A DNA stretch of 64,000 nt, from positions 1 to 64,000 of the forward strand of contig CANGLU010000009.1 of assembly GCA_947455025.1 (NCBI GenBank), given 5' to 3'. Below the pieces are notes generated by a model. It saw only the letters and a list, made by a program, of their open reading frames with translations. It ran no database searches and was not told the DNA's origin. How positions within the stretch are numbered: the first letter of the stretch is position 1; each line of letters begins with the position of its first letter. The translations under genes were made by a program, and so were the position numbers. The DNA is from Hyphomicrobiales bacterium. GTDB lineage: Bacteria; Pseudomonadota; Alphaproteobacteria; Rhizobiales; Beijerinckiaceae. Positions 15,455 through 34,064 of this stretch are shown piece by piece.

Positions 15455-15521
15455 CAATTTGCAGCGTCAAAAATAATATAAATGAGATAAAATGAGTGCT
15501 GTTTCGTATCTCAGATTGAAT

Positions 15522-15532
15522 TGAAAGTTTCA
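15522..15532. promoter_or_regulatory. Palindrome TGAAA-G-TTTCA upstream of hydroxylase gene
   Basis: A perfect 5-bp inverted repeat with a single central base lies 43 bp before the hydroxylase ATG. The half-site TGAAA recurs upstream of the Rieske ferredoxin gene (26343-26387), so one regulator may recognise both. The motif is short and the inference is tentative. Confidence 0.4.
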
Positions 15533-15574
15533 TTATGTCAATTTTTTAGAAACAACGAAGTGGGTGGATATATC

Positions 15575-16576
15575 ATGGACGATCTCAGATCAGGGACCCG
15601 CAACAAGCGTGGAGATTGGTCCCCGTCGCATCACCCTGAGATCGCATTTTATTGGAAGACGCCCTTCGACCTTCGCAAATGGGGCAAGTTTCTCATCGAT
15701 TATGTCTGGCCATGGAACGCATTTCATATGGCCATTACGCTGCTCTATTGGCATTTCATTCTTCCCGATTGGGAGGTGATGAAAACGCTGAGCTGGGATT
15801 GGGCGCTGTGGCTTTATGCTGTCAATGGGCTCGGCATTTTCTTGCTCTATGGCAGTATCGAACTCGTTTATTATGTGAAACGCAGACAGGGTACGCGTTT
15901 TAAGTACAACGCCAAGTTTCCGTCCGAGCAACCATCCGACGTTTTTTGGTTCAAAAGCCAAAATATTGATAATTTCCTTCGCAGCTATCTTTCCGGAATC
16001 GTCTTCTGGACGCTTGTCGAAGTGCTGATGCTGTGGTGCTACGCCAATCATTATGTCTATTGGCTCAATTGGTCGGAGCACCCTGTTTGGTTGACGCTGC
16101 TGCTCTTTGCGACGCCCTTGATTCACGAAGTCAATTTCTTCGTCATTCACCGCGTAATCCATATTCCATTCTTCTATAAATGGATTCATTCCGTTCATCA
16201 TAATTCGATCAACCCGTCACCGTGGTCGTCGCTGTCGATGCATCCGGTCGAGACCTTTTTGTATCATGGCGTTATTTGGTGGCACCTTGTTTTGCCTTCC
16301 AATCCGCTCATCGCGCTTTTTCAATTGCATATGGCAGGCTATGGCGCGCTGAATGGCCATATAGGCTTTGATAAGCTTGAGCTTTCAGATGAAACCGCTC
16401 TCGATAGCCATGCCTATCTGCATTACCTTCACCATAAATATTTCGAGGTAAATTATGGTGCTGATGGCCTGATACCTTTGGATTACTGGTTCGGTACTTG
16501 GCATGACGGCTCGAAAGAAGCCCAAGCCAAAATGGACGAGCGCTACGAAAAGAAGGTGGCGCGACTTAATTCATGA
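15575..16576 (+). CDS. Membrane di-iron hydroxylase, fatty acid hydroxylase/sterol desaturase superfamily (paralogue 1)
   Basis: The start at 15575 (MDDLRSGTRNKRGDW) is supported by GGGTGGA and by alignment with the paralogue at 33066. It gives 333 residues. Several hydrophobic helices precede three histidine clusters that would hold a non-haem di-iron centre: His192-x3-His196, His205-x2-His208-His209 and His283-x2-His286-His287. The superfamily hydroxylates or desaturates lipids, sterols and some small molecules using O2 and reduced ferredoxin or cytochrome b5. The setting between a LacI regulator and a sugar transporter argues against lipid metabolism. I infer oxidation or O-demethylation of the transported compound, with electrons from the Rieske ferredoxin encoded at 25992. 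Confidence 0.88.
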   Translation: MDDLRSGTRNKRGDWSPSHHPEIAFYWKTPFDLRKWGKFLIDYVWPWNAFHMAITLLYWHFILPDWEVMKTLSWDWALWLYAVNGLGIFLLYGSIELVYYVKRRQGTRFKYNAKFPSEQPSDVFWFKSQNIDNFLRSYLSGIVFWTLVEVLMLWCYANHYVYWLNWSEHPVWLTLLLFATPLIHEVNFFVIHRVIHIPFFYKWIHSVHHNSINPSPWSSLSMHPVETFLYHGVIWWHLVLPSNPLIALFQLHMAGYGALNGHIGFDKLELSDETALDSHAYLHYLHHKYFEVNYGADGLIPLDYWFGTWHDGSKEAQAKMDERYEKKVARLNS

Positions 16577-16631
16577 AATTCATGACGACATGAATCCGTC
16601 AATATAGACGGTAACTTTGGGAGGAAGTGAA

Positions 16632-17609
16632 ATGAAGAAGAGCATTATTGCTGCAGTTGCAGGGATCACCTTGGCTGCAATCGGAATGGGCACCGCAGCA
16701 GAAGCCGCTGGTGCTAAGATTTTTGTGATCGGTGGTAAACCCGATGATCCTTTCTGGGGCATTGTGAAGCGCGGCGCAGAAGATGCTGCAAAAGTTGTTG
16801 AAGCCCAAGGTGGCAGCGTCACTTGGCTCGGACCACAGAACTACGACAACCTCGGCGTTGATGCGGCCGAATTGATCCGTCAGGCCATTGCGCAAGGCGC
16901 AACGGGCGTTGTCGGCCCTGATTGGGTGCCGGATGCCATGGATCCAGCCTTCAAGGCGGTTGTCGACAAGAAGATTCCACTCGTTGTTTACAATGCGGGC
17001 GGCATTCAGGCGGCCGATCGGCTTGGCGCGCTTAACTATGTTGGCGCTATTGATTACAATGCCGGCGTTGCAGGTGGTGAATATGTTTCCAAGGCTGGCG
17101 CAAAGCACGGCGTTTGCATCAACTCGCTACCTGGCGCGAAGAACATTGAAGACTATTGCAGCGGCTTCAAAGAGGGCCTTGCAAAAAATGGCGCGAGCTA
17201 TGATGTGATCCCTCTGCCGGCAACGGCAGAAGGCAATGTTGCGGCCGTTGCTGAAGCCTTTAAGGCCTATCTCACGACCCATCCGAACACGGATGCTGCC
17301 TTCACAACGGCCAATCTTGACGCAATCGGTGCGGCTCAAGGTATCGCTGCTGCAAAGATGGATGGCAAAGTTAAGCTTTGCGGCATCAACTTTGACGAAG
17401 GCATTCTGAACCAGATCAAGTCTGGCAAACAAGCCTGCGCCATTGATCAGCAGGGCTATCAGCAGGGCTTCTATGCGGTATCGATCCTCAACGGCTATAT
17501 TAATTACGGCCTGACGATCGCCACACGCGAAATCCTGACGGGTCCGGGTGTTGTCGATTCAAAGACGATCGACGCGACGATGGCCGGTGCCAAGCAGGGC
17601 ACTCGCTAA
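16632..17609 (+). CDS. Sugar ABC transporter solute-binding protein (RbsB type, module 1)
   Basis: The start at 16632 (MKKSIIAAVAGITLAAIG) follows GGGAGGAAG and gives 325 residues with a Sec signal peptide cleaved near residue 25 (...AEAAGA). The mature protein has the type I sugar-binding fold of the ribose-binding family: KIFVIGGKPDDPFWGIVKRG, AIAQGATGVVGPDWVPDAM, LVVYNAGG and a C-terminal CAIDQQGYQQGFYAV segment. It is related to the inositol/rhizopine-binding MocB type, though specificity cannot be read. It is followed by a stem-loop and two permease genes, and stands 55 bp behind the hydroxylase gene, so co-transcription is likely. Confidence 0.92.
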   Translation: MKKSIIAAVAGITLAAIGMGTAAEAAGAKIFVIGGKPDDPFWGIVKRGAEDAAKVVEAQGGSVTWLGPQNYDNLGVDAAELIRQAIAQGATGVVGPDWVPDAMDPAFKAVVDKKIPLVVYNAGGIQAADRLGALNYVGAIDYNAGVAGGEYVSKAGAKHGVCINSLPGAKNIEDYCSGFKEGLAKNGASYDVIPLPATAEGNVAAVAEAFKAYLTTHPNTDAAFTTANLDAIGAAQGIAAAKMDGKVKLCGINFDEGILNQIKSGKQACAIDQQGYQQGFYAVSILNGYINYGLTIATREILTGPGVVDSKTIDATMAGAKQGTR

Positions 17610-17623
17610 TCTATGTAAAAGAG

Positions 17624-17653
17624 GTGGCCGTCCAACCTGTGTTGGGCGGCCAC
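17624..17653 (+). other. Stem-loop after binding-protein gene
   Basis: GTGGCCGTCCAAC (17624-17636) pairs with GTTGGGCGGCCAC (17641-17653) over a four-base loop, with one G-T pair in a 13-bp stem. It starts 15 bases after the stop codon. No T-run follows, suggesting mRNA protection or attenuation between binding protein and permeases. Confidence 0.75.
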
Positions 17654-17737
17654 AGCTGTCTGAAATTCGCTTGCCAATCGATCCCGATTGATAAGTCTTA
17701 GACGATGGCATTCGCCAAGGCGGCGCGGAGTTCAGCA

Positions 17738-18721
17738 ATGGCACAATTCTTGAGACATCCGGAAGCAGGAACCCTGTTTGGGTTGCTTGTGGCCTATGCG
17801 GCCTTTGCTGTTCTTGGCGGCCAGAATTTTGTTGGTGCGCAGGGCTGGTCGAGCTGGCTAAATGTTGCAGCGGAAGTAGGAATTATTGCGCTGCCTGTCG
17901 GCTTGCTGATGATTGCAGGCTTTCTCGATATCTCGGTCGGTTCGGTTGTGCCAGCTTCGAGCCTGACCGTTGCGCTCATTTCTAACCATTATCAATTGCC
18001 GATCCCTGTAGGGATCGCGGGCGGTCTGGCTGTTGGCCTCTTAATCGGCTTCATCAATGGCATGTTGGTGACGCGCACGACCGTTCCCTCGCTTATCATT
18101 ACCATCGGCACGATGTTCGGGACGATGGGGCTTGCTTTGGGTTTGACCGTTTTGATCAAGGGATCAACAGGTGTCTTCCTAGTTGCCGATCCGCTGACAA
18201 AATCAATCCTCGGCGAAGCGCTAGGTGGCATGTTCCGTGTTGGGATTTTCTGGTGGATTGGCGGTATCGCGCTTTTCTATTACCTGCTCCATGTTAGTCC
18301 TTGGGGAAATGGCGTGTTTGCAATGGGCGGCGACGCTGAGAGCGCCCGCAATGCGGGAATTTCGACCAAACGTTTGACCGTTCAGCTCTATATGCTGTCA
18401 GGTGTTGTTTCAGCCTTTGTCGGTGTCATTCAAATCATCGCCAATAGCAATGCGCAGGTCGCGGCCGGCAGTTCGTTCATTTTCAACTCGATTATGTGTG
18501 TCGCAATTGGCGGCGTATCGCTAACCGGTGGTGCCGGGTCAGTGATCGGGATTGCTCTCGGCACGACGATTTTTTCGGTTGTTACTCAGGGCGTTTTTTA
18601 TTCAGGCCTCGACACCAATCTGGTTTCCATCGTGATCGGAGGGATGTTTCTGATCGCGGTTCTCACGAACGACAGCTTCCGTAACTTTGCTCAAAGTTTC
18701 AGCTCAATGGCAAAAAAGTGA
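17738..18721 (+). CDS. Sugar ABC transporter permease (RbsC type, module 1)
   Basis: The start at 17738 (MAQFLRHPEAGTLFGLL) has GGAG seven bases upstream. An in-frame ATG at 17705 lacks a ribosome-binding site. This gives 327 residues with eight to ten hydrophobic helices. BPD_transp_2 hallmarks are visible: LPVGLLMIAGFLDISVGSV near residue 60, a FINGMLVTRTTVPSLIITIG stretch near 117-136, and the cytoplasmic FAMGGDAESARNAGISTKRL loop that contacts the ATPase. A second permease follows after 10 bp, so the channel is probably a heterodimer. Confidence 0.92.
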   Translation: MAQFLRHPEAGTLFGLLVAYAAFAVLGGQNFVGAQGWSSWLNVAAEVGIIALPVGLLMIAGFLDISVGSVVPASSLTVALISNHYQLPIPVGIAGGLAVGLLIGFINGMLVTRTTVPSLIITIGTMFGTMGLALGLTVLIKGSTGVFLVADPLTKSILGEALGGMFRVGIFWWIGGIALFYYLLHVSPWGNGVFAMGGDAESARNAGISTKRLTVQLYMLSGVVSAFVGVIQIIANSNAQVAAGSSFIFNSIMCVAIGGVSLTGGAGSVIGIALGTTIFSVVTQGVFYSGLDTNLVSIVIGGMFLIAVLTNDSFRNFAQSFSSMAKK

Positions 18722-18731
18722 GGACGCGGTG

Positions 18732-19721
18732 ATGGTATTGATCCGAAATCTTTTTAGGAGCCCGGCCGCGGCATCGGTCTTGAGCCTCGTTGCAACCGTC
18801 GCCTTTTATGTTCTTGTCGGCCGCGCGGACGTCTTAGCATTGGTATCGGCGGCGAGTTGGCTCAACTTCGCAGCCAATCTTGGTATCGTTGCGCTTCCTG
18901 TCGGACTTTTGATGGTGGCGGGCGAAATTGATATTTCGTTTGGTGCGATGATCCCGGCGGGCGCCATTACCACGGCACTTTTATCAGGCACCTACGGTTT
19001 ACCCATTGAAATCGGCATGCTCGGCGCTTTGTCTCTCGGTGTCATTGTAGGCCTTGTTAATGGCATTTTATCCACCAGCACCAAAGTGCCGTCTCTCCTG
19101 ATTACCCTTGGAACGTTAACCGTAATGCAGGGTATCGTCCTGTGGGCTGCGATGCACTTGGCCGGTAATGCCAGCATCCCATTGCAGGCACCGGCTTGGG
19201 CCAAATTCCTCTTTGGCCAGCTCATTAACAACAGCCATCAGGTCATCATCGCATGGTGGATTATTCTGGTGGGTGTATTCGGCCTTCTTCTCCACAAGAC
19301 AAGCTTCGGGAATTGGATTTACGCCATGGGCGGCGATAAAACATCGGCGCGCAATGCTGGTGTGCCGACGGAACGCGTAACCATAATGCTCTTTGTCTTT
19401 TCGGCGGTTTCCGCCTGTTTTGTCGGCATGTGTGGTGCAATTCTCTTTAACACCACGCAAGTGTCCGGCGGCATGAGCTATATCTTCAATGTGATTGCCA
19501 GCATCGTTGTTGGCGGTGTCCTATTGAGCGGTGGCTTTGGCTCGGTAATGGGCATTTTTATTGGCACATTGACCTTTTCCATCGTGAACAAAGGCATTTC
19601 ATTTACCAAAATCAATCCGAATTGGGCCAACCTTGTTATCGGCGTCGTTTTGGTGCTGGCCATGGTTATGAATGAATATTTCCGGAAGAGAGCCTTCCAT
19701 TACGGCTCTGCGTCGAAGTGA
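18732..19721 (+). CDS. Sugar ABC transporter permease (second RbsC-type subunit, module 1)
   Basis: The start at 18732 (MVLIRNLFRSPAAASVLSL) has TGAGG about eight bases upstream. This gives 329 residues. The same landmarks as the preceding permease are present (LPVGLLMVAGEIDISFGAM, GILSTSTKVPSLLITLGT and YAMGGDKTSARNAGVPTERV), so the two genes probably arose by duplication. Eight to ten membrane helices are predicted. The stop overlaps the beginning of the ATPase gene region. Module 2 (27350-30347) has only one permease gene. Confidence 0.92.
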   Translation: MVLIRNLFRSPAAASVLSLVATVAFYVLVGRADVLALVSAASWLNFAANLGIVALPVGLLMVAGEIDISFGAMIPAGAITTALLSGTYGLPIEIGMLGALSLGVIVGLVNGILSTSTKVPSLLITLGTLTVMQGIVLWAAMHLAGNASIPLQAPAWAKFLFGQLINNSHQVIIAWWIILVGVFGLLLHKTSFGNWIYAMGGDKTSARNAGVPTERVTIMLFVFSAVSACFVGMCGAILFNTTQVSGGMSYIFNVIASIVVGGVLLSGGFGSVMGIFIGTLTFSIVNKGISFTKINPNWANLVIGVVLVLAMVMNEYFRKRAFHYGSASK

Positions 19722-19729
19722 GACATGCA

Positions 19730-20530
19730 ATGACACATCCAATCCTCGCTCTGAACCACATCAATAAATCCTTCGGTCCGATTGATGTCTTGCATGATAT
19801 TTCGCTCACTGTACGGGCCGGTGAAGTGCTGTGTCTGTTAGGTGATAATGGCGCTGGAAAATCGACGCTGATCAAAATTTTATCCGGCGTGCATATTCCC
19901 ACATCCGGCACCATCGAGATGGATGGCGCGCCCGTTTCGTTTCAATCGCCGCGTGACGCGAGTGGACGCGGGATTGCGACCGTTCACCAATTTGGCGGAA
20001 CATTCCCGCTGATGAGCATCGGGCGTAGTTTTTTTGTTGGTGCCGAGCCGACAAAAGGCTGGGGCCCATTCAAAATATTCGACCGAAAAAAGGCAAACGA
20101 AATTGCCATCAAATCTATTCGCGATTTCGGGATTACCCGTATCGATGATGGCGAAAGGCTTGTCGGCGGATTATCAGGCGGGGAGCGACAATCGCTTGCC
20201 ATTGCACGCGCGGTCTATTTTGGGGCCCGCGTTCTCATCCTTGACGAGCCAACGGCGGCGCTGGGTATTAAACAGGCGGCACACGTGTTGCGCATTGTTA
20301 ATCAAGCAAAGAAAAAGGGGTTGGCTGTCGTCTTCATCACCCATCAAGTAACCCACGCAATGGCCGTAGGCGATCACTTCGCGGTGCTGATCCGCGGGTC
20401 AATCGCAGCTGATTTCAAGAAGGGTGACAAGACGCGCGAAGAGATTACAGATTTGATGGCGGGCGGCAGTGCGATGGCCGAGCTTGAGGCGGAAATTGAG
20501 AGCGACGCTCATCATGCTCATGTTGCGTAA
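19730..20530 (+). CDS. Sugar ABC transporter ATP-binding protein, single NBD (module 1)
   Basis: 266 residues from ATG 19730. A GTG at 19718 would overlap the permease stop and is less likely. Motifs are Walker A GDNGAGKST near residue 41, signature LSGGERQSLAIARAV near 142, Walker B VLILDEPTAALG near 165 and H-loop VVFITHQVTHAM. It has one nucleotide-binding domain, like FrcA-type proteins and unlike the double-domain RbsA or MglA. The C-terminus is His/Glu-rich. It energises the permeases encoded at 17738-19721. The same architecture is present in module 2. Confidence 0.92.
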   Translation: MTHPILALNHINKSFGPIDVLHDISLTVRAGEVLCLLGDNGAGKSTLIKILSGVHIPTSGTIEMDGAPVSFQSPRDASGRGIATVHQFGGTFPLMSIGRSFFVGAEPTKGWGPFKIFDRKKANEIAIKSIRDFGITRIDDGERLVGGLSGGERQSLAIARAVYFGARVLILDEPTAALGIKQAAHVLRIVNQAKKKGLAVVFITHQVTHAMAVGDHFAVLIRGSIAADFKKGDKTREEITDLMAGGSAMAELEAEIESDAHHAHVA

Positions 20531-21369: not shown

Positions 21370-22191
21370 ATGAGTATGTATCATAATCGTCCCCATGTAT
21401 CCGACATTCGGTCCATGAAGAAGCGGCGCGAAAAAATTTCGATGCTCTATGTCACAACTCCCGATGAAGCCGCTGCTGCAAGCGCTGCGGGTATTCATAT
21501 GTTGTCGATTGAGGGCCGCTTCTTTAATGCGGCCATGCGCGAGGCAGCTGGAGATTGCTTCGTTCAGATTGGCCTTCCCTACGGCGGTTGGGGGAGTTTT
21601 AACGGACAGGCACTCGCAACAGCAGAAGACTACTTGCGTGCCGCATATCACTATGCCGCATTGGGTGGAGATGCCTACTACTGTGCCGCATCCTATGATA
21701 TTCAAAAGACATTGGTTGATAACCACATCCCCGTTGTGGCCCATATCGGTCTTATACCATCTTATATAAGTTGGACGGGCTGGCGAGCCGTCGGAAAAAC
21801 GAGTGAAGAGGCGGTTCAACTTTGGAAGCACGCCAAGAGGCTCGAAGAGATTGGCGTCTTTGCAGCCGAATTAGAAGTCGTACCGGATCGGGTTGCTAAA
21901 TTTTTAACCGAAAACACCTCGCTCGTGATGCTAGGTATGGGTGCCGGCCAATATGCGGATGCGCAATATCTTTTTACCGAAGATGTGTGTGGCTACGGCA
22001 AAAATCACAAGCCACGCCATGGAAAGATTTATCGCCATCTAGGGCCTGAACTAGAGCGCCTCCAAAATGAGAGGATCGAGGCATTTAAGGAATTTAAGGC
22101 CGAAGTAAATTCTGGCATCTATCCCGCGCCGGAACACAGTGTATCCATCAAAGATGACGAATTTGATGCCTTCCTTGCAGCAGTGAAATAA
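21370..22191 (+). CDS. PanB-like (ketopantoate hydroxymethyltransferase family) TIM-barrel protein, paralogue 1
   Basis: 273 residues, close to the 264 of PanB. The PanB fold is recognised from the order SMLYVTTPDEAAAASAAGI, IPVVAHIGLIP (PanB: VPVCGHLGLTP), the LEVVPDRVAKFLTE segment with the conserved catalytic-type Glu169, LGMGAGQYADAQYLFTED (PanB: IGIGAGNVTDGQ) and EVNSGIYPAPEHS at the C-terminus. By eye, the Mg-binding Asp/Asp/Glu set of true PanB (VGDS, ADLPF, KIEGG) is replaced by SIEG, QIGLPYG and CAASYD, so ordinary ketopantoate synthesis is unlikely. The family uses or makes 5,10-methylene-THF, and a related one-carbon or retro-aldol reaction on a sugar-derived acid is my inference. 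It is located in the module 1 catabolic operon. Confidence 0.82.
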   Translation: MSMYHNRPHVSDIRSMKKRREKISMLYVTTPDEAAAASAAGIHMLSIEGRFFNAAMREAAGDCFVQIGLPYGGWGSFNGQALATAEDYLRAAYHYAALGGDAYYCAASYDIQKTLVDNHIPVVAHIGLIPSYISWTGWRAVGKTSEEAVQLWKHAKRLEEIGVFAAELEVVPDRVAKFLTENTSLVMLGMGAGQYADAQYLFTEDVCGYGKNHKPRHGKIYRHLGPELERLQNERIEAFKEFKAEVNSGIYPAPEHSVSIKDDEFDAFLAAVK

Positions 22192-22237
22192 TAAGCGATT
22201 TCAATTTAAAATCATTAATTCGATAAAAATGGAGTCT

Positions 22238-23257
22238 ATGGTGAGTGTACGGATCGGAATTATTGGCGCGGGGATTATGGGTACGGATCACGCCCGAATT
22301 TTCGCCGAAAGACTTTCAAATGTCGAAATACGCGTGATCTGTGATGCAGATACAGCACGTGCGAAGAAAGTTGCCGATCAATTCGGCATTATCGACGTTT
22401 CGACAGATCCTGAAAGCGTCATCCAACGATCGGATATCGATGCGGTAGTTATCGCGAGCCCTGATTCCACCCACGCGCCATTATCCCTCGCGTGTATTCA
22501 ACATCGTAAGCCTGTATTGTGCGAAAAGCCGCTTTCTCAATCATCCAACCAATGTATCGACGTGATGAACGCCGAGATCGCCGCAGGTCGTCCATTCGTT
22601 CAATTGGGCTTTATGCGCCGTTTTGATCAGGCCTATGCGGAAATGAAAACCGCGCTTCAGAATGGGGTTCTAGGTCGGCCATTGATGATGCATAATTTTC
22701 ATCGCAATGTTGAGACGCCTTCGGCTGAGTTTACCGGTGCAATGGCCATTACAAATTCGGCGCCTCATGAATTTGATGTGGTCCGCTACGTCTTGGGTGT
22801 CGAATATCGGAGTATTTCCGTTTTTCAACCGAAGCGTTCTGACGCTGTCGTTGCTCCTGTCATGATGGTTTTGGAGACGGAGGACGATCAGCTCGTCAAT
22901 ATTGAGATCAATAATAACGCGTCCTATGGCTATGATGTTCGTGCCGAGCTCATCGGCGAGGCAGGCTCTCTCTCGCTTAACGCGCCTCTGTATTCGGCGC
23001 TTGATGCAAAGCTGACCCACAGAACGGAATATGCGGCCGATTGGCGCGCGCGGTTCGCCGAAGCCTACTGGCGGCAAAATCGAGCCTTTTTACAATTTGT
23101 GACGACCGGAACATTTCCCGAGATCGCCTCCCATAGCTGGGATGGTTATGCCGCCGCGATGGTGGGAGAGGCCGGCGTTCGGGCGCTAAAGGACGGTTCC
23201 CGCACAGCCATCAGGCTTATTGAAAAGCCGTTATTTTATTCGAAATTGGGAGTGTGA
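22238..23257 (+). CDS. Inositol 2-dehydrogenase-like Gfo/Idh/MocA oxidoreductase
   Basis: The start is uncertain. ATG 22238 or GTG 22241 follow GGAG at 22231-22234, while an ATG at 22229 precedes it. From 22238 the product has 339 residues. IolG-type features: GIIGAGIMGTDHARIF, VIASPDSTHAPLSLACI, CEKPLSQSS with catalytic Lys, VQLGFMRRFDQAY near residue 127 and SAPHEFDVVRYVLG with the active-site His. The GFMRRFD segment is characteristic of myo-inositol or scyllo-inositol dehydrogenases, including rhizopine MocA. It probably oxidises the demethylated inositol-type or sugar intermediate in module 1. Confidence 0.88.
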   Translation: MVSVRIGIIGAGIMGTDHARIFAERLSNVEIRVICDADTARAKKVADQFGIIDVSTDPESVIQRSDIDAVVIASPDSTHAPLSLACIQHRKPVLCEKPLSQSSNQCIDVMNAEIAAGRPFVQLGFMRRFDQAYAEMKTALQNGVLGRPLMMHNFHRNVETPSAEFTGAMAITNSAPHEFDVVRYVLGVEYRSISVFQPKRSDAVVAPVMMVLETEDDQLVNIEINNNASYGYDVRAELIGEAGSLSLNAPLYSALDAKLTHRTEYAADWRARFAEAYWRQNRAFLQFVTTGTFPEIASHSWDGYAAAMVGEAGVRALKDGSRTAIRLIEKPLFYSKLGV

Positions 23258-23261
23258 AAAT

Positions 23262-24221
23262 ATGAAACTTGGTTTTGTCTCCGACAGCCTCGGCGGAATG
23301 AAATTTGATGAATTGCTCGATCATGCCGCCCGAATGGGTGTGGATGGTGTGGAAGTGAACACAGGCGGGTGGTCTACGGCGCCGCATTTCAATCTGAAAG
23401 ACATGAAAGCGAGCGCTCAGGCCCGCAAGAGTTTTCAGAAAAGTTTTTCCGATCGCGGGCTGGAAATCATCTCCCTTAATGCAAACGGAAATCCACTTCA
23501 CCCAACCCAAACAGAGCAGGGTGAATGTCTAAAGGACACGATCCGTGTGGCGGGTGAATTGGGCATTAAGACGGTTTGTACGATGTCAGGTCTTCCGGCC
23601 GGTAGCGATGGCGATCTGATGCCAAACTGGGTTGTTTCTTCATGGCCACCTGAAACGCAGGCCATCTTGAATTATCAGTGGGAAAAGAAACTGCTTCCGT
23701 TTTGGACGGAGATGGCAGCGCTAGCAAAGTCGTGTGGTGTCGAGCGCATTGCGCTTGAGCTCCACGGTAATCAATGCGTCTATAACGTACCCTCTCTTTT
23801 GAAATTGCGAGACATGGTAGGCCCGACAATCGGAGCCAATCTCGATCCGAGCCATCTCTTTTGGATGGGGGCCGATCCGCTGATTGCGGCGGAACGTTTG
23901 GGGCAGGCGATTTATCACGTGCACGCCAAGGATACGTTTTTGAACGCGCCCGTTCAGGCGACAACGTCACTGCTTGAGAATGGCAGCCTTACCGATATTC
24001 CTGCCCGTTCTTGGTCGTATATCACGCTTGGATTTGGCCATGGTGAAGAGTGGTGGCGGCAATTTTGCTATCGCTTGAAAATGGGTGGTTATGACGGCTG
24101 GCTTTCGATTGAGCATGAAGATGTCTTGCTCAATTCGCTCGAAGGCCTTGAAAAGTCGGTTACGCTTTTGAAAAGTGTCATGCCGACGGCCGCCCCGGAT
24201 TTCAAGCTGCAAGCGATCTGA
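23262..24221 (+). CDS. Sugar phosphate isomerase/epimerase-like TIM-barrel protein (IolE/MocC-like)
   Basis: The start at 23262 (MKLGFVSDSLGGMKFDELL) follows GGGAG. The frame extended to 23220 overlaps the dehydrogenase stop and is rejected. 319 residues. Metal-site segments: IALELHGNQCVYN near residue 165, IGANLDPSHLFWMGADP near 190, IYHVHAKDTFLN near 218 and WLSIEHEDVLLN near 280. Proteins of this kind accompany IolG-like dehydrogenases in inositol and rhizopine clusters, where they isomerise or dehydrate keto-inositols. Four bases separate it from the dehydrogenase gene. It is the last intact gene of the module 1 operon and is followed by a strong terminator. Confidence 0.87.
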   Translation: MKLGFVSDSLGGMKFDELLDHAARMGVDGVEVNTGGWSTAPHFNLKDMKASAQARKSFQKSFSDRGLEIISLNANGNPLHPTQTEQGECLKDTIRVAGELGIKTVCTMSGLPAGSDGDLMPNWVVSSWPPETQAILNYQWEKKLLPFWTEMAALAKSCGVERIALELHGNQCVYNVPSLLKLRDMVGPTIGANLDPSHLFWMGADPLIAAERLGQAIYHVHAKDTFLNAPVQATTSLLENGSLTDIPARSWSYITLGFGHGEEWWRQFCYRLKMGGYDGWLSIEHEDVLLNSLEGLEKSVTLLKSVMPTAAPDFKLQAI

Positions 24222-24281: not shown

Positions 24282-24314
24282 AGCCTCTCTCTAACGAGAG
24301 AGGCTCTTTTTTTC
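24282..24314 (+). terminator. Rho-independent terminator of module 1 operon
   Basis: AGCCTCTCTC (24282-24291) pairs perfectly with GAGAGAGGCT (24296-24305) over loop TAAC, followed by C and eight T residues. It lies 60 bases after the TIM-barrel gene stop. This is the clearest intrinsic terminator in the window. Confidence 0.93.
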
Positions 24315-24345
24315 TGCTCTCTTAACGCTGTAAAAGGGAGTATAC

Positions 24346-24584
24346 ATATCAAAATCATTTGAGCTTCGCGTGACATGCAAATCATCGCATGGGATTGTTG
24401 CTGCCATCTCGACCTATCTTGCGCATAATGGTTGCAATATCATCGATTTCTCCCAATTTGACGATCTGCACACAGATCGCGGGCACTTTATGCGCATATC
24501 CATGGCCGTGTTTTTGTTAACGGAAACAAGACGGTCGTGTTTCCGGCGTCGCCCGGCTCGTTTGCATCCGAGCGAATGGGATAG
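24346..24584 (+). pseudogene. purU: Remnant of purU (formyltetrahydrofolate deformylase): both ends kept, middle deleted
   Basis: The frame beginning at 24346 reads SKSFELRVTCKSSHGIVAAI and continues STYLAHNGCNIIDFSQFDDL, closely matching the N-terminal ACT domain of PurU up to HFMRIS (about 24500). From about 24507 another frame reads RVFVNGNKTVVF, matching the PurU C-terminus, then a stop at 24582. Roughly 220 central codons, including the catalytic domain, are missing and the frame shifts at the junction. AAGGGAG stands at the right distance from codon 24346, which is ATA where ATG is expected, so the start may also be lost. A functional purU would hydrolyse 10-formyl-THF to formate, a natural partner of O-demethylation. 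It probably once followed the module 1 operon. Confidence 0.8.
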
Positions 24585-24609
24585 CGAGATTTTTTGGATT
24601 GATATTGGG

Positions 24610-25827
24610 CTAAACGGCGCTTGATAGCAGAGATTTGAGCTTGAAGGCCGGATCAGCCAAGAACGTTTTATCGGGCTTGGCCCGCTTCGCGATGAGCATT
24701 TCGGCAAATCGAATATCGCGCGCGATGCTGTTGCCGATACCTAAGCCGCTCGCTGCGAGCAATCGACCGTCGGCTGCGAGATGGAACAGGATAGAGGCCT
24801 GCTCATCGATCTTGCGTTCAATCTCTTCGGTTGCATCCATCGCAAGGCCTGCAATTTGCAGCGTGAGATCGTATTGATCCGACCAAAACCATGGAACGGC
24901 CTGATAGGCATCTGTTGATCCGAGCATCGCCTTTGCAGCGTGATCGCCTTGTTCCTGTGCCGCGCGCCAGCTCTCGATACGGATGTGCTTATTGTCGTAA
25001 AGCGGATGCGGGAACGAACAGCAATCGCCTGCCGCATAAATGGCGGGATCGGAAGTTTGAAGCATCCCGTTGACCGCAATTCCATTACCAATTGTAAGCT
25101 CCGCCTTTTGCGCGAGTTCAATATTCGGTAATGACCCGATGCCGGCAAGAACCACGTCGCTCGGGATTTCGGTTCCGTCTTCCAGCGTAATCATGCGGGC
25201 AGCACTGACGGAGGCGATCGCTTTACCGATGTGAAAGGTTACGCCCGCCATCCGATGCCGCGCCTCTATCTTGGCAGCAAGCGATGCTGGAACGGCCCGA
25301 CCGAGAATACGCGGCGCTGATTCGATTAGCGTAACGATGGCGCCGTATTTCCGAGCTTCCGCGGCAATTTCAAGGCCGATGAAACCGCCACCAAGGATGG
25401 TTAGGCGGAAATCCGGCGAGATTACATCATAGAGAGCCTTGGCATCGTCATAGCTACGGAGATACCGGGCTTGCGGAACGTCATTTCCATTGAGGACGAG
25501 CGGGCGAGGACGCGCGCCCGTAGCGATCAGGAGCTTGTCATAGGGTAGGCGTTCATGATTCGAGAGCGCAACTTCTCGTGCATCCCGGTCAATCGAAAGC
25601 GCGATGCTATCACTGTGCAGGGCGATACGATCTTCGAGCAGTCTATCCGTGCCGCCGATCGGCTTTAAGGCGACGCCGTCCGCACTGGGCTTTGATAGCG
25701 GCGGGCGCTCATAGGGAATATGAGCTTCGCCATTTACGAGATCGATAGCGCCATCAAATCCCTGCTCGCGCAATGCTAATGACGCTCTGACCCCGCATTC
25801 TCCCGCGCCGATGATGACGATCCGCAT
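24610..25827 (-). CDS. FAD-dependent ferredoxin reductase (MocF-like)
   Basis: 405 residues from ATG 25827 (MRIVIIGAGECGVRASLALR), with an in-frame ATG nine bases upstream. The fold is that of BphA4/putidaredoxin-reductase proteins: FAD-binding GAGECG at the N-terminus, YERPPLSK near residue 44, ATGARPRPL near 108, a second Rossmann motif ILGGGFIGLEIAAEA for NAD(P)H near 150, and IYAAGDCCSFPHPL contacting FAD near 265. It passes electrons from NAD(P)H to a [2Fe-2S] ferredoxin, most likely the Rieske protein encoded at 25992. In rhizopine catabolism MocF has this role for the MocD oxygenase. A terminator between the two genes on this strand suggests partly separate transcription. Confidence 0.9.
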   Translation of the reverse strand: MRIVIIGAGECGVRASLALREQGFDGAIDLVNGEAHIPYERPPLSKPSADGVALKPIGGTDRLLEDRIALHSDSIALSIDRDAREVALSNHERLPYDKLLIATGARPRPLVLNGNDVPQARYLRSYDDAKALYDVISPDFRLTILGGGFIGLEIAAEARKYGAIVTLIESAPRILGRAVPASLAAKIEARHRMAGVTFHIGKAIASVSAARMITLEDGTEIPSDVVLAGIGSLPNIELAQKAELTIGNGIAVNGMLQTSDPAIYAAGDCCSFPHPLYDNKHIRIESWRAAQEQGDHAAKAMLGSTDAYQAVPWFWSDQYDLTLQIAGLAMDATEEIERKIDEQASILFHLAADGRLLAASGLGIGNSIARDIRFAEMLIAKRAKPDKTFLADPAFKLKSLLSSAV

Positions 25828-25844
25828 AAGCCTCATCCAATTTT

Positions 25845-25991: not shown

Positions 25992-26303
25992 TTAGGCGAG
26001 TTCGATAAATAAATCGTCGTTTTCAATTTTTGTTGGATAGGTCTTTAGATTAATGCACACGGGTGCACCCTTAGCGGCACCTGTGCGGTAATCGAAACGG
26101 CCATTGTGCTTCGGACACTCTATCGTGTAGTCCATCACCAACCCATCGGCGAGATGAACGGATTCATGGGTGCATAATCCATCGGTCGCAAAAAATTGGT
26201 CATCTTTGCGATAGAGCGCATAGGTTTTGTTGTCATGGTCAAACCGAATAACATCTTCGTCCGGAATATCATCGGTTTTGCAGGCTTTAATCCATTGCGT
26301 CAT
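25992..26303 (-). CDS. Rieske [2Fe-2S] ferredoxin (MocE-like)
   Basis: 103 residues, the usual size for a Rieske-type ferredoxin. The cluster-binding motifs are complete: C-x-H at Cys44/His46 (GLCTHESVHL) and C-x2-H at Cys63/His66 (ECPKHNGRFDYRTG). No signal peptide or membrane anchor is present, so it is cytoplasmic. It would carry electrons from the reductase encoded at 24610 to oxygenases. Candidates are the desaturase-type oxygenase at 30719 and the two hydroxylases at 15575 and 33066. In rhizopine clusters the equivalent is MocE. A 227-bp upstream gap holding repeated TGAAACA motifs suggests a regulated promoter of its own. Confidence 0.92.
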   Translation of the reverse strand: MTQWIKACKTDDIPDEDVIRFDHDNKTYALYRKDDQFFATDGLCTHESVHLADGLVMDYTIECPKHNGRFDYRTGAAKGAPVCINLKTYPTKIENDDLFIELA

Positions 26304-26530: not shown

Positions 26531-27328
26531 TCACTTTGGCAATTGCGCGATGAAGGCTTTCAGTTCCTGATCGTCAATCGGGACAAGATGCTTGTCTTCG
26601 GGATAGGCGCCCGTCTCGACATCTTGGCGAAATTCATTGAAGGCTGCGATCCGCTCGAGTTGAAGGCGGTCATATTCCGCACGAAAATTGCGATACACTT
26701 TCGCATGGCGGGGACGATGGGTCCGCGTGTAGCCTAAAACGTCTTCAGAGAAGAGATATTGGGCATCCCCGCCTGTTCCAGCGCCCATCGACAAGAGGAC
26801 GAGGGATGTACGCTTCGCGATTTCTTCGGTCACACGTCCGGGAACAACTTCGATTTCAGCGCCGATGGCGCCCGCTGCTTCGAGAGCCTTGCACTGGTTG
26901 TAGACATACATCGCGGTATCGGCCGTTTTACCAACTGCCTTAAAGCCGCCTGTCCATGTGGCGCGGGCGGGGCAGAGGCCCACATGGCCGACTACCGGAA
27001 TACCTTCCGCCGATAATTTCGAAATTGTGTTAAAGCTACCGGCGCAATAGAAAGCATCGCCACCAATTTTCATTCCGGCAAAGGCTGAGCGCAGATAATC
27101 TTCATAAGTCGCATTGTCGCCATACAGCAGCCCAACCTGAACAAAACAGTCTCCGGCCGCCTCGCGCATTTCGGGTGTCCAAATTGGCGCGATGATGGAG
27201 AGTAGGTCAATGCCTGCCGCCGCTGCCGCCGCTGCCTCTTCCGGCGTCTCAACAAACAGCATTGTCATTTGGCGCTTGCCCTTTTGGGCCCGCAAATCCG
27301 CAACGGTCATACGATTATTTTTTTTCAT
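26531..27328 (-). CDS. PanB-like TIM-barrel protein, paralogue 2 (module 2)
   Basis: 265 residues. It shares the PanB order with the protein encoded at 21370: MTMLFVETPEEAAAAAAAGI, IPVVGHVGLCP, IEVVPGRVTEEIAKRTSLVL with the conserved Glu160, SMGAGTGGDAQYLFSEDVLG and a C-terminal TGAYPEDKH. As in paralogue 1, PanB metal-site positions appear changed (SIIAP, QVGLLYG, CAGSFN), so pantothenate synthesis is unlikely. By eye the two paralogues are well under half identical, so they may act on different compounds. The gene sits directly upstream of the Rieske gene and 21 bp downstream of a sugar-transporter ATPase gene, making it part of module 2. Confidence 0.82.
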   Translation of the reverse strand: MKKNNRMTVADLRAQKGKRQMTMLFVETPEEAAAAAAAGIDLLSIIAPIWTPEMREAAGDCFVQVGLLYGDNATYEDYLRSAFAGMKIGGDAFYCAGSFNTISKLSAEGIPVVGHVGLCPARATWTGGFKAVGKTADTAMYVYNQCKALEAAGAIGAEIEVVPGRVTEEIAKRTSLVLLSMGAGTGGDAQYLFSEDVLGYTRTHRPRHAKVYRNFRAEYDRLQLERIAAFNEFRQDVETGAYPEDKHLVPIDDQELKAFIAQLPK

Positions 27329-30718: not shown

Positions 30719-31816
30719 TTATTGTTCAGCAACCGGCGCTGGCTTAAAGGGGCGCGCTGTTGGTGGCAAAGTACGCCGAATAAAATAATCAGGATCTCTT
30801 AGTTGCCGAATAAGCGTAGGGATAATTTCACGATAGGCGTCGTAAAAGCTTGAATAGGGCTTCGGGCAATCTGGAAGCATTTCCTTGTGAAGTTCAGGCA
30901 AGCGATAATAAGGAACCATCGGGAACATGTGATGCTCCACGTGATAATTCATGTTCCAATAAATGAAGCGGCTGAATGGATTCATATAAACCGTGCGGCA
31001 ATTCTGACGATGATCGAGAACGTCTTCGGCAAGCCCGATATGTTGTGTCACGCCGGTGAGGATATGATGCCAAGCGCCATACATCCGTGGAAGGCCGATG
31101 ACCATTAGCGGCAAGATCGAGCCCATATAGACAGCGGCGGCGAGGGTTGCTGCATAGATAATCGTCCAAACTCGTGCGACATTATAGGCTTTGGATTGTT
31201 CACTCTCAGGGATGAAATCCTTTTCCTGATCGTTCAAAGTGCCGGACGCATGACGCAGCATGGTGAGCAGTGATTGGGGAACGTCCAGAATACCAAATAC
31301 ATTCAGAATGAGTTTGATCAGTTCCGGTGGACGCATGGTAATAATCTCGGGATCGCGCCCGACCACAATGGTATCGGTGTGATGCCGCGAATGGCTCCAG
31401 CGCCAAACAACCGGATTTCGGATCATTAAGAAACAGGCGAGCTGATATACGGCATCGTTTTTCCAAGGCGTCTTGAAGGCCGTGCCATGGCCGCATTCAT
31501 GCCAGCGGCTATCGCCTCCTGATCCATATAAAACGCCATAGATCAGAAAAAATGGCACCGCCCATACACTCGGCCAAAGCCAGACACCCAAGCCCGCCGT
31601 CACGATCATTCCGCCGATCCAGAGGATTGTGTCACGTGTCGCAGGCCCGTCGGACCGCTGCATCAATTCTTTCATGCGGGCGCGTGGAATATCCGTCCGA
31701 TACCATTCGGCATTGGCGAGGCCAATGTCGACCGCCTGCTTATTCAGCGCGCCCGTTAAGCTGTAATCGCGTGGATGATTCTTGTGATGCTGCTCGGTAG
31801 TGATTGCGACCGTCAT
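30719..31816 (-). CDS. Fatty-acid-desaturase-type di-iron oxygenase (MocD-like)
   Basis: 365 residues with two pairs of membrane helices. The three histidine boxes are complete: HECGH at 106-110, HSRHH at 142-146 and NYHVEHHMFPMVPYYRLPEL towards the C-terminus. The second box is followed by TDTIVVGRDPE, a pattern I associate with MocD/rhizopine-type oxygenases and not with lipid desaturases, although this is recalled. MocD with MocE and MocF is implicated in oxygenative demethylation of 3-O-methyl-scyllo-inosamine. The ferredoxin and reductase counterparts are encoded at 25992 and 24610. The gene diverges from the LacI-type regulator at 31996. Confidence 0.88.
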   Translation of the reverse strand: MTVAITTEQHHKNHPRDYSLTGALNKQAVDIGLANAEWYRTDIPRARMKELMQRSDGPATRDTILWIGGMIVTAGLGVWLWPSVWAVPFFLIYGVLYGSGGDSRWHECGHGTAFKTPWKNDAVYQLACFLMIRNPVVWRWSHSRHHTDTIVVGRDPEIITMRPPELIKLILNVFGILDVPQSLLTMLRHASGTLNDQEKDFIPESEQSKAYNVARVWTIIYAATLAAAVYMGSILPLMVIGLPRMYGAWHHILTGVTQHIGLAEDVLDHRQNCRTVYMNPFSRFIYWNMNYHVEHHMFPMVPYYRLPELHKEMLPDCPKPYSSFYDAYREIIPTLIRQLRDPDYFIRRTLPPTARPFKPAPVAEQ

Positions 31817-33065: not shown

Positions 33066-34064
33066 ATGGACGATTTAGCTTATGGCAAGCGTAATAAGCG
33101 CGGCGATTGGGCACCGAATGAGCCCGCTGGCACCGCACCTTTGTTTTTTTTTCCGCCCCAGCCGCTGACCTTCTTAAAATGGCTACCGCATTATTTCTTG
33201 CCTTATAATCTGCTCTTCGCAGTGTCGACTCTTGTCTGGTGGAATTATGTTCTGCCCGATGTCGAAACCATGAAAACGCTCGGCGTCGCATGGATCGCAA
33301 AGCTGTATATTGTCAATCTCTTTGCTGTGCTTTTGTTTTTTGGTATCTTTGAATATCGCCTTTACATCCAACGCGCGCAGGCCAATCGTTTCAAGTATAA
33401 TGGCAAATGGCCATCGGATAATAAAAGCGATGTCTTCTGGTTCAAGAATCAGAATACAGACAGCCTCTTGCGTACCGTTTTTCATGCGATCCCAATCTGG
33501 ACGGCACTCGAAGTTGGCATTCTATATGCGTATGCCCACGGCTATGTGCCATGGCTGAGCTTTGCATCGAACCCTTGGTATCTCGCCCTTATCGCTTTGC
33601 TCGTACCCGTCATCCACGAGGTTCATTTCTACCTGCTGCACCGTTTGATACACACGCCGTTTCTTTATAAGCATGTTCACTCAGTGCACCACAATTCGGT
33701 GAATCCATCACCCTATTCATCGCTGTCGATGCATCCGGTTGAACTGCTCGGCTATCTTGGTGTTGCGCTTTGGCATCTTGTTATTCCGTCCAATACAATG
33801 CTCGCATTATACCAGCTCCATTTTGCGGGCTTTGGTGCAATTCCCGGTCATATCGGATTCGATAAAATTGAGACGGGCGAAAACAGCACCATGGATACGC
33901 ACGCCTATATCCACTATCTGCACCACAAAAATTTTGAAGTGAATTACGGCGATGGCCTAATTCCATTCGATAAATGGTTTGGCACGTTCCATGACGGCTC
34001 GCCTGAAGGGGAAGCACGGATGGAAGCCCGTTTTGAAAAGCGCCGCGCCAAGTTAAATTCGTGA
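33066..34064 (+). CDS. Membrane di-iron hydroxylase, fatty acid hydroxylase superfamily (paralogue 2)
   Basis: 332 residues, colinear with the protein encoded at 15575: both start MDDL-x2-G-x-RNKRGDW and keep all histidine clusters at the same positions (His192-x3-His196, His205-x2-His208-His209 and a C-terminal HYLHHKNFEVNYG). Five or so hydrophobic segments indicate an integral membrane enzyme. The ATG follows GGGAGGTGGC. It is transcribed together with lacI 2. A reduced ferredoxin is expected as electron donor. The context of sugar transporters makes hydroxylation or O-demethylation of an imported small molecule more likely than lipid hydroxylation, but that is inferred. Confidence 0.88.
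   Translation: MDDLAYGKRNKRGDWAPNEPAGTAPLFFFPPQPLTFLKWLPHYFLPYNLLFAVSTLVWWNYVLPDVETMKTLGVAWIAKLYIVNLFAVLLFFGIFEYRLYIQRAQANRFKYNGKWPSDNKSDVFWFKNQNTDSLLRTVFHAIPIWTALEVGILYAYAHGYVPWLSFASNPWYLALIALLVPVIHEVHFYLLHRLIHTPFLYKHVHSVHHNSVNPSPYSSLSMHPVELLGYLGVALWHLVIPSNTMLALYQLHFAGFGAIPGHIGFDKIETGENSTMDTHAYIHYLHHKNFEVNYGDGLIPFDKWFGTFHDGSPEGEARMEARFEKRRAKLNS

Follow-up and report, generated by a model that had tools for sequence, protein, structure and literature searches.

The window (the whole stretch of 64,000 nt that was analyzed, from a Hyphomicrobiales bacterium) contains a cluster of genes resembling rhizopine (moc) catabolic genes, and within it a pseudogene of purU, the gene for 10-formyl-THF deformylase, that spans 239 bp (Table 1). 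The relic stands between mocA-mocC on the plus strand and mocF-mocE on the minus strand. The cluster also holds two PanB-like genes, two inositol/rhizopine-like ABC transporters and flanking LacI-type regulators. The MocE ferredoxin scored above the curated cut-off for this moc (rhizopine) family. The binding protein, by contrast, reached 114.8 bits with the rhizopine-binding model NF052284, far below the cut-off of 420, and therefore "rhizopine-like" denotes the layout of the cluster, not its substrate. Local synteny with plasmid records was limited to mocA-mocC, about 30% of the query.

Table 1. Features of the moc cluster and of the purU relic, in window coordinates.
Feature	Position	Strand	Basis
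Sterol-desaturase/fatty-acid-hydroxylase-like di-iron protein, first	15521–16576	+	
PanB-like protein, first	21370–22191	+	Pantoate_transf fold
mocA-like Gfo/Idh/MocA dehydrogenase	22229–23257	+	profile matches
mocC-like sugar phosphate isomerase/epimerase (TIM barrel), upstream neighbor	23262–24221	+	profile; 77–85% identity in other clusters
Intrinsic terminator separating mocC from the relic (10-bp stem followed by T run)	24282–24305	+	prediction, −18.3 kcal/mol, z −2.8
Ribosome-binding-site-like AGGGAG, 5 nt upstream of ATA	24335–24340	+	sequence only
purU pseudogene, whole	24346–24584	+	
ATA at the purU start position	24346–24348	+	intact relatives begin no more than about one residue away
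N-terminal (ACT) segment of PurU, frame 1	24346–24497	+	profile matches, tblastn, alignment
Deletion junction ATGCGCAT; the one copy left of a presumed pair of 8-bp direct repeats	24490–24497	+	spacing in 18 homologues
C-terminal segment of PurU, native TAG stop, frame 3	24490–24584	+	tblastn, alignment
mocF-like ferredoxin reductase, convergent downstream neighbor	24610–25836	−	profile matches
mocE Rieske ferredoxin	25992–26303	−	TIGR02377, 161 bits vs. cut-off 136.15
PanB-like protein, second	26531–27328	−	Pantoate_transf fold
mocD-like desaturase-fold oxygenase	30719–31816	−	PF00487; named by position with MocE/MocF
Sterol-desaturase/fatty-acid-hydroxylase-like di-iron protein, second	33066–34064	+	

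Two further pairs of genes accompany this layout. The PanB-like proteins scored 95–119 bits against KPHMT cut-offs of 207–272, and their genes adjoin MocDEF in many clusters of congeners and Rhodobacteraceae; PanB-like proteins accompany MocDEF in nearly every cluster. When they were aligned with E. coli PanB (1m3u), LADLPF was found to read QIGLPY and the KIEGGE stretch to be replaced, so that canonical ketopantoate chemistry is doubtful for these proteins; a role in one-carbon transfer is possible. The two di-iron proteins, which are related to each other, adjoin LacI-type regulators, one at either end of the moc region, and most moc clusters contain such proteins. They are possibly additional hydroxylases.

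A preliminary description, made from the letters of the sequence, had proposed a purU relic with preserved termini and a deleted core, and the independent PurU matches of both ends confirm this. Frame 1 translates from the first position as ISKSFELRVTCKSSHGIVAAISTYLAHNGCNIIDFSQFDDLHTDRGHFMRIS, which is the start of PurU up to HFMRIS; some 50 codons of this N-terminal, ACT-bearing part survive, and the last 30 or so codons are kept in frame 3, which ends in AHIHGRVFVNGNKTVVFPASPGSFASERMG, the PurU C-terminus, followed by the native TAG stop at 24582–24584. Profile searches, which could have contradicted the identification, matched the N-terminal segment to PRK06027 (E 1e-9) and to PurU TIGR00655 (E 2e-7), and to the Pfam ACT domain just above the cut-off, with the domain cut at 45 of 66 positions. 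In tblastn searches of 72,556 plasmid records, each segment by itself recovered annotated purU genes: the best matches of the N-terminal segment were such genes at 72% identity (E 5e-14), and the C-terminal segment matched their C-termini at up to 85.7% (E 4e-14). The two segments match PurU on the same strand and in gene order.

As a functional PurU the relic falls short: the score with TIGR00655 was 29–31 bits over profile positions 2–53 only, against a curated cut-off of 285.95. The formyltransferase domain with the catalytic Asn, His and Asp is deleted, and PurU positions from about 50 to about 260 are gone. With a deletion, a frame shift and a lost start, the relic is a real, well-delimited purU pseudogene, and a new example of a familiar type. 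A search of the whole genome with the PurU model revealed no full-length purU; apart from the relic, it matched only PurN-like and Fmt-like proteins.

The C-terminal tail PASPGSYASERMG, which the relic possesses, marks a methyl-catabolic subgroup of PurU. In Rhizobium, Sulfitobacter, Shinella and Neorhizobium, members of this subgroup adjoin folD, glyA and the genes for dimethylamine monooxygenase and sarcosine oxidase; the association with demethylation genes was observed in most contexts, and one plasmid copy is without such neighbors. These neighbors are what would be expected for an enzyme converting methyl-derived 10-formyl-THF to formate. In Methylobacterium extorquens CM4, PurU together with FolD has been described as the oxidation route for the methyl groups of chloromethane (PMC3621897).

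Eighty loci with the same mocC (77–85% identity) were collected from named genomes. Of the 57 moc clusters whose sequence extends 8 kb or more downstream, 5 contain an intact purU of this subgroup a few kilobases downstream of mocC, and in none of these five did it follow mocC directly. Thus, purU is an optional part of the moc cluster. The five clusters belong to Rhodobacter amnigenus (L098), Tropicibacter naphthalenivorans (L133), an alphaproteobacterial MAG (L136), Vannielia litorea (L140) and Puniceibacterium confluentis (L148). In Rhodobacter amnigenus, folD directly precedes purU. In Puniceibacterium confluentis, purU is convergent with mocE/mocD, with a LacI gene beyond, an arrangement resembling that of the relic relative to mocF/mocE. 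The presence of the same purU subgroup, still intact, in moc clusters of other alphaproteobacteria supports the earlier proposal that a deformylase was once attached to this operon, and, together with the folD of Rhodobacter amnigenus, bears out the proposed link of the region to formyl-THF and formate. Directly after purU, the MAG (16029–17954 of its locus) and Vannielia litorea (18243–20183) encode IolC, 5-dehydro-2-deoxygluconokinase of the inositol pathway, a neighborhood that ties these two moc clusters to inositol breakdown.

In the literature, we found no paper linking purU to rhizopine clusters. The occurrence of PurU, sometimes with FolD, in a subset of moc/inositol clusters supports the release of formaldehyde by MocDEF and its disposal via tetrahydrofolate. 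The linkage of PurU, FolD, IolC and PanB-like proteins to Moc-type O-demethylase genes deserves mention, and is more useful than the relic itself. We also considered a broader hypothesis, which we regard as speculative and rather unlikely: that the Moc-type O-demethylase clusters could belong to a broader system acting on O-methylated inositol-like compounds and equipped with a built-in, interchangeable one-carbon outlet (folD-purU in certain lineages, Fhs in others and, possibly, PanB-like proteins), of which the relic would be a snapshot taken during an outlet swap.

An intact purU was sought in the genus and not found: none of its 12 genomes encodes PurU, and DNA searches of the 11 congeners for a remnant of purU returned chance-level matches only. 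At three congener loci (L164, L165 and L167, in genomes G010, G009 and G002), a PanB-like gene converges on mocF with scarcely a gap and no purU in between; the mocD-mocE-mocF genes of these loci are 56–84% identical to those of the window. The source genome encodes FolD, a full-length formate-THF ligase (Fhs) and the alpha subunit of formate dehydrogenase. Among 60 relatives, Fhs was present in 30 of the 32 genomes that lack PurU vs. 14 of the 28 that have it (Fisher p 2.5e-4); with one genome per genus, which is the extent of the phylogenetic correction, p was 0.005. Across the order, PurU and Fhs are complementary, in that 14 of the 16 genomes without clear Fhs have PurU.

These distributions bear on the suggestion of the preliminary description that the loss of PurU rewired one-carbon flow in the source organism. 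In its favor, purU stands together with folD in related clusters where it is retained, purU is essential for the growth of Methylobacterium on chloromethane (PMC3621897), and no glutathione (GSH)-dependent formaldehyde dehydrogenase scored over the cut-off in the source genome. However, the PurU-less state is the norm of the genus, and with Fhs, FolD and formate dehydrogenase all present, Fhs can carry out the same net step. There is a precedent in SAR11, for which methyl oxidation was predicted to proceed via metF-folD-fhs-fdh and oxidation of methyl groups to CO2 has been demonstrated (PMC3160333). Rewiring is not needed to account for the relic and appears improbable; redundancy with Fhs is the plain reading of the loss. 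The relic is therefore best read as the loss of a redundant, cluster-borne copy of purU. As a cluster-borne purU lost in a genus without PurU and with Fhs, the pseudogene itself is of little weight.

The junction suggests how the gene was lost. The sequence derived from the N-terminal part and that derived from the C-terminal part were placed about seven bases apart in the preliminary description; instead, they overlap in the 8 bp ATGCGCAT, common to both. The junction reads CAC TTT ATGCGCAT ATCCATGGCC, where TTT ATG CGC AT is the FMRI end of the N-terminal segment and AT GCG CAT ATC CAT GGC the (H)AHIHG start of the C-terminal one. In 18 of 18 intact homologues, a distance of exactly 652 bp separates the two matching sites, each of which agrees with ATGCGCAT at four to eight of the eight bases. 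Restoring this distance to the relic (239 + 652 = 891 nt, or 297 codons) yields a length within the range of the homologues as extracted (879–915 nt). As 652 = 3n + 1, the frame changes. Thus, one 652-bp deletion between short direct repeats, which took away the middle three-quarters of the gene, explains the loss of the core and the frame shift, that is, everything except the start codon. Both exact copies of the 8-bp repeat were found together in none of the 18 homologues; the ancestral gene would have carried both, and a repeat-mediated (slippage-type) mechanism presumably removed the sequence between them. Relatives reveal the length of this short-repeat deletion, which makes the relic a clean example of its kind.

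Could the junction instead be an assembly or sequencing artefact, with an intact purU in the real genome and a chimeric or collapsed contig? The assembly is indeed a draft of 87 contigs. However, the missing 652 bp occur nowhere else in an assembly that is 98.5% complete, as judged by the PurU-model search; assemblers do not normally join sequences on 8 bp; and a 652-bp gap that restores the exact family length is not a base-calling fault. Furthermore, the ATA start, substitutions of two otherwise invariant residues (R24H and G53D, in alignment numbering) and the insertion of a codon indicate real decay. An assembly error at the relic is unlikely, and we consider the artefact as a whole highly improbable.

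As proposed, the start position is occupied by ATA, with a ribosome-binding site before it, and no in-frame ATG, GTG or TTG occurs between the TAA at 24331 and the GTG at 24370. A change of ATG to ATA at 24346 is likely, as judged by alignment; the order of the events (deletion, start loss) is one that we infer. Neither of the remaining segments contains a stop codon. The C-terminal segment retains all residues that are invariant in 19 relatives save one at the junction, which is derived from the N-terminal part, whereas the N-terminal segment has 2 of its 15 invariant residues changed and a one-codon insertion near its end (TDRGHF vs. TG-FF). Because the segments are free of stops and so little altered, the sequence suggests that the decay was recent. 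The terminator predicted upstream of the relic would curtail transcription running on from the mocA-mocC operon. An expressed mini-protein with a role of its own, encoded by the ACT-like frame at 24346–24624 or from GTG 24370 (84 aa), is scarcely credible: frame 1 is open through the remnant and has the ribosome-binding site before ATA, but the ACT domain is truncated, from its midpoint on it reads the PurU C-terminus in the wrong frame and then mocF antisense sequence, none of the 11 congeners has a counterpart, the predicted terminator separates the frame from the mocC operon, and two otherwise invariant residues are changed.

Taken together, the results make it very probable that the relic is a purU pseudogene made by a single 652-bp, repeat-bounded deletion, with the start codon also changed to ATA. 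The account is anchored in the PurU homology at either end, in the junction and in lengths that add up exactly. Originally, a complete purU of some 296 codons, belonging to the subgroup of methyl-oxidizing operons, would have stood between mocC and mocF. Deletion of the 652 bp between the ATGCGCAT in the FMRI codons and that in the HAHI codons would have removed the end of the ACT domain together with the whole formyltransferase core and shifted the frame, and the start codon would have changed to ATA. Before its loss, the enzyme would have hydrolyzed 10-formyl-THF to formate, the substrate probably being formed by FolD from the formaldehyde of MocDEF-type O-demethylation. The loss may have been tolerated because the same carbon can pass through Fhs acting in reverse and then through formate dehydrogenase.

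Compared with known systems, the locus shares with the rhizopine (moc) catabolic clusters (mocA, mocC, mocDEF and a mocB-type binding protein) the mocA/C/D/E/F-like genes and two ABC transporters, and differs from them in its flanking LacI-type regulators (with counterparts at 32% to 86% in relatives), the two PanB-like genes and the sub-cut-off binding protein. In the folD-purU modules for THF-dependent C1 dissimilation, such as that of the cmu plasmid of Methylobacterium extorquens CM4, folD and purU are paired with a demethylating system; here, by contrast, purU is dead, and the single folD lies on another contig rather than locally. With respect to the intact PurU (TIGR00655/PRK06027) subgroup, the relic is out of frame, starts with ATA and is devoid of 652 bp of core and of the catalytic domain, yet it carries the same C-terminal tail and is up to 72% identical in its N-terminal part and up to 86% in its C-terminal part to annotated purU genes on plasmids of Rhizobium, Sinorhizobium, Sulfitobacter and Paracoccus.
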